From: Pseudomonas aegrilactucae
GTDB lineage: Bacteria; Pseudomonadota; Gammaproteobacteria; Pseudomonadales; Pseudomonadaceae
Assembly (NCBI RefSeq): GCF_019168305.1
Contig: NZ_JAHTBI010000072.1
Span: 1 to 64,000, forward strand
Length of the DNA: 64,000 nt
Direction: 5' to 3'
Shown here: positions 52,574 to 56,141 of the stretch, piece after piece
Position numbering within the stretch: the stretch's first letter is position 1
Layout of the letters: each line of letters opens with the position of its first letter
Translations under genes and position numbers: made by a program
Notes under the pieces: generated by a model
What the model was told of the DNA's origin: nothing
Database searches by the model: none
Seen by the model: the letters and a program-made list of their open reading frames with translations, nothing else

Positions 52574-53422
52574 ATGTTTGGACGCTTCGGCAAGGATGCC
52601 GGTTCACTGCTGGGCATCGATATTTCGGCGCATGGCATCAGGTTGCTGCAGCGCCGGCGTGCCTGCGGCACGGTCAGCGCGTGGGCCACCGAACCGGTGG
52701 CGGCGGGGGTGCTGCACGAGGGCCGGGTGGTGGACCCCGAGCGACTGGCGCACGCCTTGGGGCAGGCCTTTGCGCGCAGCGGTGCCACCTGTCGCGAGGC
52801 TGGCGTGGCGGTGCCCGCATCGGCGGTGCTGAGCAAGGTGCTGAGGGTGCCGGCAGGGCTCACGCCCGATGCACTGTTCGCCCACGTGCGCCTCGAAGCC
52901 GAGGCATTCATTCCATTTGCCATGGAGGACGCCGCACTCGACTTCGAGTGCCTGGGTCGCGCCGCGCAGGATCCTGCCTGCGAGGCGGTGTGCGTGCATG
53001 CCTGCCACCAGAACTGGGTCGATGGGCTGGAGGCAGCGGTGGAACTGGCCGGCTTGCGCGCACGGGTGGTGGAGTCCGACAGCCTGGCCCTGCAACGGGC
53101 CGCCGGGCTTGAGAGCGGTGCGGTGCTGCAGGTGGAGGCCGGCCATCTGGTGCTGCATGTACTGGCAGCGCACGCGGTGGTGTGGCGAGGCGAGGCAGTG
53201 GCGGCCACCGACCTGCCGCACAGCCTGGCCGAGTGCGTCGACCGCTGGTTGCTCGCGCTCGATGGCGTCATGCCGTCGCGCCTGGTGCTGGCAGGGGCGG
53301 CGGCCACGGCGGGGCAGGCGCTGTACCTGCAGCGCCAGTTGGGCCTGGACACCACCCTGTTCGGTCCGGCCCCACCCACACTGGCCCTGGCCTACGGGTT
53401 GGCAGCCAGGTGTGCGCCGTGA
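52574..53422 (+). CDS. pilM: Type IV pilus assembly protein PilM, short form
   Basis: Cytoplasmic actin-like protein that binds the N-terminus of PilN. The sequence keeps the N-terminal nucleotide-fold segment LLGIDISAHGIRLLQ near 13, FIPFAMEDAALDFE near 112 and the C-terminal LALAYGLAAR. At 282 residues it is clearly shorter than the usual 354, so internal parts are reduced. Start ATG 52574 has GGAAGGGA upstream. First gene of the pil cluster; its stop overlaps pilN (GTGA). Confidence 0.85.
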   Translation: MFGRFGKDAGSLLGIDISAHGIRLLQRRRACGTVSAWATEPVAAGVLHEGRVVDPERLAHALGQAFARSGATCREAGVAVPASAVLSKVLRVPAGLTPDALFAHVRLEAEAFIPFAMEDAALDFECLGRAAQDPACEAVCVHACHQNWVDGLEAAVELAGLRARVVESDSLALQRAAGLESGAVLQVEAGHLVLHVLAAHAVVWRGEAVAATDLPHSLAECVDRWLLALDGVMPSRLVLAGAAATAGQALYLQRQLGLDTTLFGPAPPTLALAYGLAARCAP

Positions 53423-53949
53423 GGCACGGGCTCAATCTGCTGCCTTGGCGTGAATGGCGGCGTCAGCGTGGGGTGCGCCAGTTGCAGGGGTTGTTGCTCG
53501 CCACCTTGCTGCTGGCGATTGTCGGCCTGGTGCTGCTCGATCGACAGGCCAGTCGCCGGCTTGCGCTGCAGGGCCTGGCCAATGCGCAGGTGAGTGACGC
53601 CATCGCTCGGCTCCAGGCACCGGTTGCCCAGGTGAACGGCCTGGCGGCGCAAGGCGATGCGCTGTTGCAGCGGGCACAGGTGCTTGAAGCCTTGCAGCAC
53701 GCCGCGTCACCGGGCGCACAGGTGCTCGGCCTGCTGGCCCGGCGTGTGCCGCCTGGGGTGCAACTGACCGCGCTGGCGCTGGAGGGCAACGCCCTGCGCC
53801 TGGAAGGCGTGGCGCAGGGGCGAGCGTCGGTGACCCGCTTGATGAGCAACCTCGGGCAGTCGCCTGGCCTGGCCGATATCCGCCTGCAGGAAGTCAAGGC
53901 CACGGCGACCGGCGAGGTGTTCCAGATGAGTGCGCAGGTGCGGCCGTGA
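53419..53949 (+). CDS. pilN: Type IV pilus assembly protein PilN
   Basis: Inner-membrane protein of the alignment complex. The 176 residues start with the conserved PilM-binding motif, here LNLLPWREWRRQ near 5-16 (canonical I-N-L-L-P-W-R), then one membrane helix (about 22-42), a coiled coil and a small alpha/beta domain. Start is GTG at 53419, overlapping the pilM stop. It also overlaps the next gene by GTGA. Confidence 0.9.
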   Translation: MRHGLNLLPWREWRRQRGVRQLQGLLLATLLLAIVGLVLLDRQASRRLALQGLANAQVSDAIARLQAPVAQVNGLAAQGDALLQRAQVLEALQHAASPGAQVLGLLARRVPPGVQLTALALEGNALRLEGVAQGRASVTRLMSNLGQSPGLADIRLQEVKATATGEVFQMSAQVRP

Positions 53950-54845
53950 ACCAGGCGCTGAGCTGGGGGGCGATCGCGGCGTGGTCATGGCCGCGCAAGC
54001 TGTTGTTGCTGGTGGGCGGTGGCGTGCTGCTGCTCGGGCTGGGGCAGGGTGCGCACCTGCGCGCGGGTGACGCGGCGCTGGCACGGGCACAGGCCCGTGG
54101 TGCCGAGCTGCAGGTGACCTGGCAGCAGCAGGCCGACCAGGCGGCCCGACTGGCCGGGGAGCAGGCGCGGTTGCTGCAGTTGCAGCGTCGTTTGCGTGAG
54201 GCCCAGGCGCCGCTGTTGCCCGAGGGCGGCCTGCCAGGGTTGTTGCAGGACATCGCCGCGACAGGCCGGGGCCTGGTGTTCGAACAGGTCAACGTGCTGG
54301 CGGCGCAGGCCCGGGCCGAGTATGCCGAGGTGCCGATTCAGGTGCGGGTGGTGGGCGACTTTTCGCAACTGTCGGGGTTTGTCGACGCACTGCTCGGTCT
54401 GCCCAGGCGGGCAACCCTGCATGACCTGCAGGTGTCGCCGCTGGATGGGCGCGAGCAGTTGCGCCTGCAACTGCAGCTCAACGCCTATGCCTCCGGGGTG
54501 CCTGTCGAGGCACCGGTGCAGGCCGAGGGGGCGCTGATGGCGTCGCGCAATCCGTTCAGCGCCTCGACGCCTGCCCCCGCCGCATCGGTGCTGGAGGGCT
54601 TGCCCGTGGACCAGTTGGAACTGGTGGGGCACCTGGCAGACCCACGTGGGGCCGTGGCGCTGATCCGCGCGGCAGGCGCGCTGTATCCGGTGCGTGTGGG
54701 TGATCGGCTGGGGCCCGACCAGGGCCGGGTGGTGCGTGTCGAGGCACAGCAGTTGGAGCTGGCCGAGCGGGTCTGGGTCGAGGGCGGCGGCTGGGTGGTG
54801 CGTTCGCGGGTGATTGGCGTCAATGCTCAACGAAGCTTCAACTGA
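53946..54845 (+). CDS. pilO: Fused PilO-PilP type IV pilus assembly protein
   Basis: One open frame of 299 residues encodes both parts. The first 185 or so residues are PilO: membrane helix (about 18-36), coiled coil (40-85) and a ferredoxin-like domain (GLVFEQVNVLAAQ to LQLQLNAYAS). After a short linker the rest matches the PilP beta domain: RNPFSAS near 199, then LEGLPVDQLELVGHL near 216 and YPVRVGDRLGPDQGRVVRV near 245. PilP is normally a separate lipoprotein; here there is no lipobox and no stop between. GTG start at 53946 overlaps pilN. Confidence 0.85.
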   Translation: MNQALSWGAIAAWSWPRKLLLLVGGGVLLLGLGQGAHLRAGDAALARAQARGAELQVTWQQQADQAARLAGEQARLLQLQRRLREAQAPLLPEGGLPGLLQDIAATGRGLVFEQVNVLAAQARAEYAEVPIQVRVVGDFSQLSGFVDALLGLPRRATLHDLQVSPLDGREQLRLQLQLNAYASGVPVEAPVQAEGALMASRNPFSASTPAPAASVLEGLPVDQLELVGHLADPRGAVALIRAAGALYPVRVGDRLGPDQGRVVRVEAQQLELAERVWVEGGGWVVRSRVIGVNAQRSFN

Positions 54846-54860
54846 CCAGGGAGGTCATGG

Positions 54861-56141
54861 ATGAACAGAAGGGCGCGTGTGTGTGTTGCGTTGTTGCTGG
54901 TGCTCGGGCTGCCGCAGGCACTGGCGGCGCTGCAACCCTTGCCCGGGGGTGGCGAGCGGCTGTCATTGAGCTTCCAGGATGTGGAGGTGCGTTCGGTGCT
55001 CAAGGTGCTGGCCGATTTCACCGGTACCAACCTGGTGGTCAGCGATGCGGTGCAGGGCAAGGTGACCTTGCGCCTGCAGGATGTGCCGTGGGAGCAGGCA
55101 CTGGACCTGGTGTTGCGCAGCAAGGGCCTGGGGCGGCGCCAGGACGGCAATGTGCTGCTGGTGGCGCCCCTGGCCGAGCTGGCCGGGCATGAGCGCCAGG
55201 CGCTGGCGGCGCAACCGCCCGTGGCCCTGGCCCGTGAGCTGCTGGCCGTCAACCATGCGCGGGCGGCCGACCTGGTGCAGATGTTCCAGGCCCTGGCGCC
55301 GCAAGAGGCGCCAGGGGCGATCACGGTCGACGAGCGCACCAATACCATCATTGCCAGCCAGCCGCCTGCTCGTCTGGCCGAGCTGCGTCGCATGCTGGCG
55401 CAGCTCGACGTGCCGGTACGCCAGGTGATGATCGAGGCGCGCATTGTCGAGGCCAATGTCGATTATGAAAAAAGCCTGGGTGTGCGTTGGGGTGGGGCGG
55501 TGCAACTGGGTGGCGGGTTCAGCCTCAAGGGCATGGCCGCAGATGGGCAGCCGTTCGTCGACCTGGGCGTGGAGCGGCCGGCGGCAGGCATCGGTCTGGG
55601 CCTGGTGCGCAACAGCGTGCTGCTCGACCTTGAACTCAGCGCCATGGAAAAGACCGGCAACGGCGAGATCATCTCCCAGCCCAAGGTGGTCACTGCCGAC
55701 AAGGAGACCGCGCGCATCCTCAAGGGCACCGAGGTGCCGTACCAGGAGTCGGGCGCCAACGGCAGCACCTCCACCACCTTTCGCGAGGCGTCGCTGTCGC
55801 TGGAGGTGACGCCGCAGATCACCGCCGACAACCGCGTGATCATGGCCGTCAAGGTCACCAAGGACGAGCCGGACTATCTGAATGCCTTGAACAGCGTGCC
55901 GCCGATCCGCAAGAACGAGGTCAATGCCAAGGTTCAGGTGGGCGATGGCGAGACCATCGTGATCGGCGGGGTGTACTCCACCGTGCAAAGTAATGTTGTC
56001 GACAAGGTGCCATTTTTCGGCGATGTGCCGTATGTTGGGCGGCTGTTTCGTCGCGCCGTTATCCAAGAGAAAAAATCCGAGCTGCTGGTCTTCCTGACTC
56101 CGCGTATCATGAGTGACCAGGCGATTGCTGTGAGTCGTTGA
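54861..56141 (+). CDS. pilQ: Type IV pilus secretin PilQ, short form without AMIN domains
   Basis: Outer-membrane secretin channel. The 426 residues have a signal peptide (1-23), an N0/STN domain ([20 protein letters not shown] to about 110), one N1 domain (about 115-180) and the secretin core with [16 protein letters not shown] near 293 and the C-terminal [16 protein letters not shown] near 390. Pseudomonad PilQ is usually about 700 residues and carries peptidoglycan-binding AMIN domains; these are missing. GGAGG precedes ATG 54861. It is five bases upstream of aroK. Confidence 0.9.

Follow-up and report, generated by a model that had tools for sequence, protein, structure and literature searches.

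Can PilP do its work as part of the same polypeptide as PilO, and to what kind of pilus machine would such a chain belong? The question is raised by an operon in the window, a 64,000-nucleotide stretch from Pseudomonas aegrilactucae (assembly GCF_019168305.1, contig NZ_JAHTBI010000072.1, positions 1 to 64,000 of the forward strand), which holds four pil genes where five are usual. Their order is that of P. aeruginosa, PilM-N-O-P-Q, with a single gene in the place of pilO and pilP. The genes and the parts of the fused product, with the evidence for each, are as follows.

52574–53422, plus strand: pilM, 282 aa, matching only positions 1–167 of the 340 of PilM_2 (Pfam)
53419–53949, plus strand: pilN, 176 aa (Pfam)
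53946–54845, plus strand: pilO-pilP fusion gene, 299 aa, GTG start (sequence, Pfam, phmmer, predicted structure)
53988–54077, plus strand: N-terminal hydrophobic helix region, approximately residues 15–44 (sequence, hydropathy, AlphaFold2 helix 15–87)
54078–54488, plus strand: PilO periplasmic domain, residues 45–181 (Pfam PF04350; Foldseek and VIA to 2rjz and 5uvr)
54489–54575, plus strand: linker, residues 182–210, with RNPF at 201–204 (sequence and AlphaFold2 pLDDT)
54576–54815, plus strand: PilP beta domain, residues 211–290 (Pfam PF04351; 2y4x, 2lc4 and 2ivw by sequence and fold)
54861–56141, plus strand: pilQ, 426 aa, with N0, STN and Secretin_N matched and AMIN unmatched

The window PilM (52574–53422) is shortened, and its Pfam model was matched in the first half only. 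Read from their translations, the flanking genes appear to be ponA/mrcA upstream on the opposite strand and aroK and aroB downstream, names that agree with the mrcA-hofMNOPQ-aroK-aroB order of Escherichia coli.

PilO and PilP domains in a single chain

The fusion gene starts with a GTG at 53946 that overlaps the pilN stop codon by 4 nt, and its own stop codon lies at 54843–54845. An earlier note, made from the letters alone, had read 53946–54845 as PilO and PilP in one chain without an internal stop, in a tightly spaced operon and without a lipobox. The coordinates proved exact, and the frame is open throughout the region between the two domains, with zero stops. Both domains exceeded their Pfam cut-offs, PilO at residues 45–181 (PF04350, E = 5.1e-21, 75.8 bits versus a cut-off of 22) and PilP at residues 211–290 of the same chain (PF04351, E = 2.7e-14, 53.8 bits versus 25.6). 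In phmmer searches the PilO half matched P. aeruginosa PilO (2rjz, 5.1e-17) and the PilP half matched P. aeruginosa PilP (2lc4, 6.3e-11; 2y4x, 7.8e-11), which are chains separate from PilO. The protein contains no cysteine and hence no lipobox, as claimed. The fusion gave the only PF04351 match in the window genome, where no separate PilP was found, and the window protein as query retrieved zero further matches there below E 0.1.

The PilP model was covered at positions 64–144 of 146 only; the positions before 64, which represent the PilNO-binding N-terminal region, were unmatched. The N-terminal helix is expected to be the sole membrane segment of the window protein. Among 73 fused proteins, hydropathy analysis gave one membrane segment in 70, none in two, and two in one.

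An AlphaFold2 model of the window protein, built on a 14-row alignment (mean pLDDT 77.3, pTM 0.39), showed a PilO half joined by a linker to a beta domain. The pLDDT fell below 50 in the linker at residues 186–203 and 205–209, and the placement of the two domains relative to each other is of low confidence, as the pTM indicates. Comparison with known folds by Foldseek and VIA-align superimposed the beta domain (model residues 212–292) on PilP 2y4x (Z 13.4, rmsd 2.1, 81 aligned) and the domain also on chain Pa of 3jc8 (Z 13.7, rmsd 2.2, 85 aligned); the N-terminal half was superimposed on PilO 2rjz (Z 14.0, rmsd 5.7, 118 aligned) and 5uvr (Z 11.8, rmsd 2.1, 91 aligned). Both folds are thus shared with the P. 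aeruginosa structures (2rjz and 5uvr for PilO, 2lc4 and 2y4x for PilP), and the C-terminal part has the PilP fold on which the earlier reading depended.

It is barely conceivable that the gene yields two products, the fusion and a free-standing PilP whose translation begins within the linker. At 54537 an in-frame ATG does follow a G-rich stretch, and several in-frame GTG/TTG codons occur, but none of the other 13 aligned fused proteins has a methionine at that place (methionine alone was compared, not GTG/TTG), and a product that lacks a signal sequence would remain cytoplasmic.

The fusion is already known in print. Korotkov et al. 2011 (PMC3169554) cite a 'P. putida PilO-PilP' fusion (UniProt Q88CU9) and infer a 1:1 ratio. 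It is the same fusion in one chain, and the P. putida loci L109 and L152 were fused in our data. In the part of that paper available to us, the fusion is the subject of a short remark, and a survey, origins, the lipobox, and linked losses are absent from that part. What is added here is the distribution of the fusion, its repeated origin, and its association with a shortened PilQ and a machine that lacks a recognisable PilB.

Distribution, join, and origins of the fusion

The genus was surveyed with PF04351 in 149 Pseudomonas genomes drawn evenly across it. A match was obtained in 148 of the 149, at a single place each except in G018 and G066, which had extra matches, two in all, under the cut-off. 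All genomes with a divergent match, both with a strong match in a frame longer than 259 aa, and controls were read; in the unread genomes the open frames around PilP were at most 259 aa, versus 283 aa for the shortest fused protein. By profile scan, PilO and PilP shared one open frame in 44 of the 149 genomes, the window genome included. Named GTDB loci were selected as best by PilQ, a marker independent of the fusion; of these 80, 29 were fused and 51 split. The named fused species comprise P. putida, P. fulva, P. inefficax, P. capeferrum, P. guariconensis, P. laurentiana, and P. japonica, as well as P. poae, P. grimontii, P. yamanorum, P. costantinii, P. salomonii, and P. edaphica. The resulting 73 fused loci are not independent records because the named and unnamed sets overlap (identical rows); the 4 nt overlap between pilN and the fusion gene recurred in 66 of them. 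PilM, PilN, PilO, PilP, and PilQ domains were all present at the loci of 44/44 fused genomes. An assembly or frameshift artefact was rejected because the fusion recurs in many genomes, and the same architecture in 44/149 genomes and 29/80 named loci excludes chance.

Across the class, 369 genomes were surveyed and 289 gave a match at E ≤ 0.001; among the roughly 150 matches listed, both domains were spanned by the window row alone, and weaker fusions may have escaped this list. Of 145 genomes of the order, 123 matched at E ≤ 1e-10, and two more rows spanning both appeared among the matches listed, G592 and G537. The former, from another family of the order, is a real fusion (L202:2940–4055, 371 aa, PilO 127 bits, PilP 108 bits). 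G537 was rejected because its PilO and PilP are split, and so was G581, a partial span that also proved split. The G592 fusion adjoins a PilQ of 461 aa without AMIN.

A further joining was seen at three loci, where PilM and PilN occupy one open frame (L060:1654–2901 in G007, L062 in G096, and L149). Pfam confirmed both domains in the single frame of L060, and profile scans indicated them in L062 and L149, so that the machine there consists of two joined platform proteins plus PilQ. L149 is named 'Pantoea sp. Cy-639' but groups inside Pseudomonas in the tree.

The join was compared with the sequence of split PilPs. A lipobox-like motif was found by a loose pattern in all 107 split PilPs examined; a stricter pattern was failed by 12 of 62 because other letters precede the cysteine. 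From the lipobox cysteine, approximately 45 residues lead to an LR(S/D)PF motif, followed by the beta domain. The fusions were assigned by script to two groups. In the P. fluorescens-type fusions (n = 28) the linker is 51–62 residues long, and LRDPF and more of the PilP N-terminal region are kept. In the other 45 the linker has a median of 40 residues (range 31–123, the upper value reflecting a misplaced domain boundary in L068), and the motif has eroded to, for example, RNPF, xDPF, or DLF. RNPF at 201–204 of the window linker is such a remnant of LR(S/D)PF. In several split species with a short PilQ, the PilP N-terminal region already differs from the classical sequence.

In a tree of PilN, PilO, PilP, and PilQ, two changes between the split and the fused state are needed, and the starred branches force two. 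A single fused clade was rejected (66 versus 29 rows, log-likelihood 52.6 lower, AU p = 0.011), with the reservation that the tree programs warned of long branches, that of the window row included, and that the AU test shares this weakness. Long branches lead to the P. putida-group fused rows, of which the window row is one. A single gain followed by reversals would require three changes, and a lipobox would have to arise anew. The tree therefore needs two origins of the fusion within Pseudomonas, and G592 adds a third in another family of the order.

Selection was estimated from 29 fused gene pairs at 80–98.5% protein identity, which overlap, include duplicate loci, and exclude the window gene, for which no relative was close enough. 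The dN/dS of the whole protein was 0.18–0.37 in these pairs, and that of the PilP part was lower than that of the PilO part in 21 of the 29. The PilP-part value of 0.85 for L068/L142 is not meaningful because the L068 boundary fell on residues 310–322 only. The low dN/dS of these close pairs, together with the many relatives that share the fusion, upholds the earlier contention that it is not a recent accident.

Two proteins that group with the window protein, L083 (G009) and L084 (G130), have a PilP domain without its last strands (26.5 and 23.1 bits, respectively). This truncation, and the lack of a PilT match in G009, suggest that the function may fade in some species.

The pilus machine that accompanies the fusion

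Every fused locus has a short PilQ, and none has a PilQ of at least 600 aa. Twelve short PilQs were scanned, 10 of which belong to fused loci, and none gave an AMIN match; the single classical PilQ scanned gave one. Nine sampled genomes combine a short PilQ with a split PilP that has a lipobox; PilQ shortening thus exists without the fusion, and the reverse was never seen in the sample. Fusion-free branches with a short PilQ carry P. protegens with G061; G071; P. helleri with G132, G116, and G106; and G030 with G143, G032, and G052. The shortening may accordingly have arisen more than once.

The remaining pilus genes were compared in 70 genomes picked from the PF04351 survey: 44 fused, nine split with a short PilQ, and 17 classical. 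PilY1 (PF05567, E ≤ 1e-5) was found in 0/44, 0/9, and 15/17 of these, respectively, and PilB over its curated cut-off (TIGR02538) likewise in 0/44, 0/9, and 15/17; no more than two or three origins underlie the link of the fusion with a short PilQ and a missing PilB, and the genome counts are not independent. One PilT/PilU-family match was obtained in 42/44 fused genomes (two in G140, none in G009) and in 9/9 split genomes with a short PilQ, versus two or more in 16/17 classical genomes. A PF00114 pilin was present in 42/44, 7/9, and 14/17, respectively, and both PilF and ComEC exceeded their cut-offs in 70/70. The two classical genomes without PilB over the cut-off were G080, with a partial match, and G021, with weaker matches only. 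G021 has a long PilQ and a split PilP and lacks PilB, PilY1, and a second PilT; the losses are therefore not strictly tied, and PilB loss also occurs on its own.

In the window genome, the PilT family is present and PilF is over its cut-off. Its pilA-pilC-pilD locus has Pilin, T2SSF, and Peptidase_A24 domains, and the NCBIfam cut-offs for PilC and GspF were not reached. At this locus (L200:1075–3801, G000:C102), a gap of 163 bases without a pilB separates the pilin from the pilC-pilD genes. A pilC-type gene adjoins the pilin gene in G104 and G017 (L198 and L199), two further fused genomes.

Three candidates for a missing PilB were rejected. The best match to the PilB model in the window genome (G000:C53, 533 versus 675.65) fits GspE best, just under the cut-off, and stands among GspF-, GspG-, and secretin-type genes. 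A PilB-model match in G077 lies approximately 17 kb downstream of pilP in a GspD/GspE/GspF cluster, and a GspE-family match in G015 adjoins PilO/PilP/PilQ-like genes. These G015 genes (L207), a second PilO-, PilP-, and PilQ-like set, may form an MSHA-type pilus cluster with the adjoining ATPase.

A candidate motor of the machine without PilB is an ATPase of the TfpB class. The ATPase G000:C6 of the window genome scored 772 against the TfpB model NF053534, below the curated 850, with approximately 80 N-terminal model positions unmatched. It is 63% identical to a classical Pseudomonas TfpB (G041) that scored 963, and the two have the same neighbours; these are the only two scores known against the 850-bit cut-off. 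Sequence verification of TfpB covered 26 genomes without PilB, namely the window genome, 16 of 17 P. fluorescens-type fused genomes, and all nine split genomes with a short PilQ. With G021 and G041 included, 28 of the 29 proteins scanned matched NF053534 at E ≤ 1e-200; the one that did not, 38% identical to the first row, presumably belongs to G089. Each of the other 26 fused genomes, of the P. putida type, has at least one ATPase of the GspE/PilB class, and exactly one at E ≤ 1e-85 was found in G145, G003, G065, G142, G144, G091, G117, and G009.

There is precedent for such a motor. According to the available text of Ellison et al. 2021 (PMC8213720), an Acinetobacter baylyi pilB cpiR pilT strain still makes pili with TfpB as sole extension ATPase, and P. 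fluorescens A506 has tfpB and lacks pilB, so that TfpB could be its sole extension motor. The fused lineages resemble A506 in having pilus genes with tfpB and without pilB. A506 is one strain, whereas here PilB is missing across sampled lineages, together with the PilO-PilP fusion.

Observations in P. putida tell in part against a functional fusion. In the sections of a 2026 paper that we could consult (PMC12918733), tagged PilO, PilQ, and PilT were undetectable. No pilus-like structures were seen there in first attempts and none in the wild type, and one was seen in surface-spreading cells of a fimV mutant, at a frequency under 1 in 1,000. Deletion of pilA abolished surface spreading. The same paper notes no clear PilB and poses as a question whether and how the pilus works without one.

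An alternative reading is that the machine is decaying, having lost PilB and PilY1, and that the fusion is an erosion step without a function of its own. Such a course would fit the absence of PilY1 and of PilB over the cut-off from all 53 fused or split/short-PilQ genomes, the truncated PilP domains of G009 and G130, and the long branches of the P. putida-group fused rows, the window row included. It is nevertheless quite improbable in view of the low dN/dS of the 29 close pairs, the five Pil domains retained in 44/44 fused genomes, the pilin retained in 42/44, and the loss of surface spreading on pilA deletion in P. putida.

The operon was also compared with hofMNOPQ of E. coli K-12, which lies between mrcA and aroK-aroB, as the window operon does by our reading of the window genes, and in which HofM and HofQ are short, as are the window PilM and PilQ. 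HofO and HofP, unlike the window fusion, are encoded by separate genes. E. coli HofP (L235:3116–3520) has a signal-like start with a methionine at the place of the lipobox cysteine (LLTGM), directly before RDPF; it has no long region before RDPF and stands beside a HofQ of 412 aa. By our reading, HofP, likewise next to a short secretin, would have lost the lipid anchor by a different route. These likenesses, namely the short PilQ and PilM, the operon place, and a HofP likewise without lipobox cysteine, could suggest that the Pseudomonas genes encode a DNA uptake apparatus of the Hof/Com type that serves competence only, rather than a pilus, and ComEC over its cut-off in all 70 genomes could be added to them. 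We regard this as unlikely. The window PilQ stayed under the HofQ cut-offs (302 versus 554 bits for NF010083 and 244 versus 598 bits for NF007851) and exceeded that of PilQ (456 versus 284 bits), ComEC does not discriminate, being found just as regularly in the 17 classical genomes, HofO and HofP are separate, and surface spreading in P. putida depends on pilA.

Proposed role of the fused protein

The gene is likely to encode a true and working fusion of PilO and PilP, alignment proteins of the type IVa pilus, set in a reduced pilus machine. Most likely, the product would link the inner-membrane platform to PilQ as a single chain that carries no lipid. P. aeruginosa PilP, as described in the part of PMC5805733 accessible to us, is a separate lipoprotein whose disordered N-terminus (approximately residues 18–76) binds PilNO and whose beta domain binds PilQ, whereas the window protein is fused and lacks a lipobox. 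The fusion keeps the secretin-binding part, and we infer that a covalent bond replaces the PilNO-binding part.

In the proposed arrangement, the one N-terminal helix would anchor the fused chain in the inner membrane and the PilO part would pair with PilN. The PilP beta domain, carried on a flexible linker from the C-terminal end of PilO, would dock on the N0 domain of PilQ. The covalent bond would stand in for the lipid anchor as well as for the disordered N-terminal stretch through which PilP is normally bound to the PilN-PilO pair; the lipid anchor would be lost, and PilO and PilP would be present at a ratio of 1:1, as the earlier note had supposed. The setting would be a reduced machine with neither PilY1 nor recognisable PilB, and with a PilQ devoid of AMIN.

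A wider proposal can be made tentatively, and it may well prove wrong: that the pilus of the P. putida and P. fluorescens lineages is a distinct, reduced form of type IVa whose parts changed together. The AMIN domains of the secretin, PilY1, a second PilT/PilU-type ATPase, and PilB would have been lost, TfpB would serve as the sole extension motor, and the anchor of PilP would have been given up two or more times by fusing the protein to PilO. Among the open-licence papers, as far as their texts were available, none was found that joins the fusion, the short PilQ, the missing PilB, and the HofP case. The link with the missing PilB bears on the question posed in 2026 for the P. putida pilus (PMC12918733).

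As a natural experiment, the fusion informs on the pilus alignment complex: the ratio of PilP to PilO would seem to be fixed, and the lipid and the PilNO-binding tail to be dispensable once the two proteins are joined. The single chain may also be a handy construct for structures of the inner-membrane platform where it meets the secretin, the separate PilNOP proteins of P. aeruginosa having given no crystals of the whole complex (PMC5805733, in the part accessible to us). If the wider proposal is true, secretin reduction and loss of the PilP anchor would be mechanically linked, with HofP and HofQ of E. coli as a parallel case, and PilP lipidation would matter only when the secretin has AMIN domains and is held independently of PilP.
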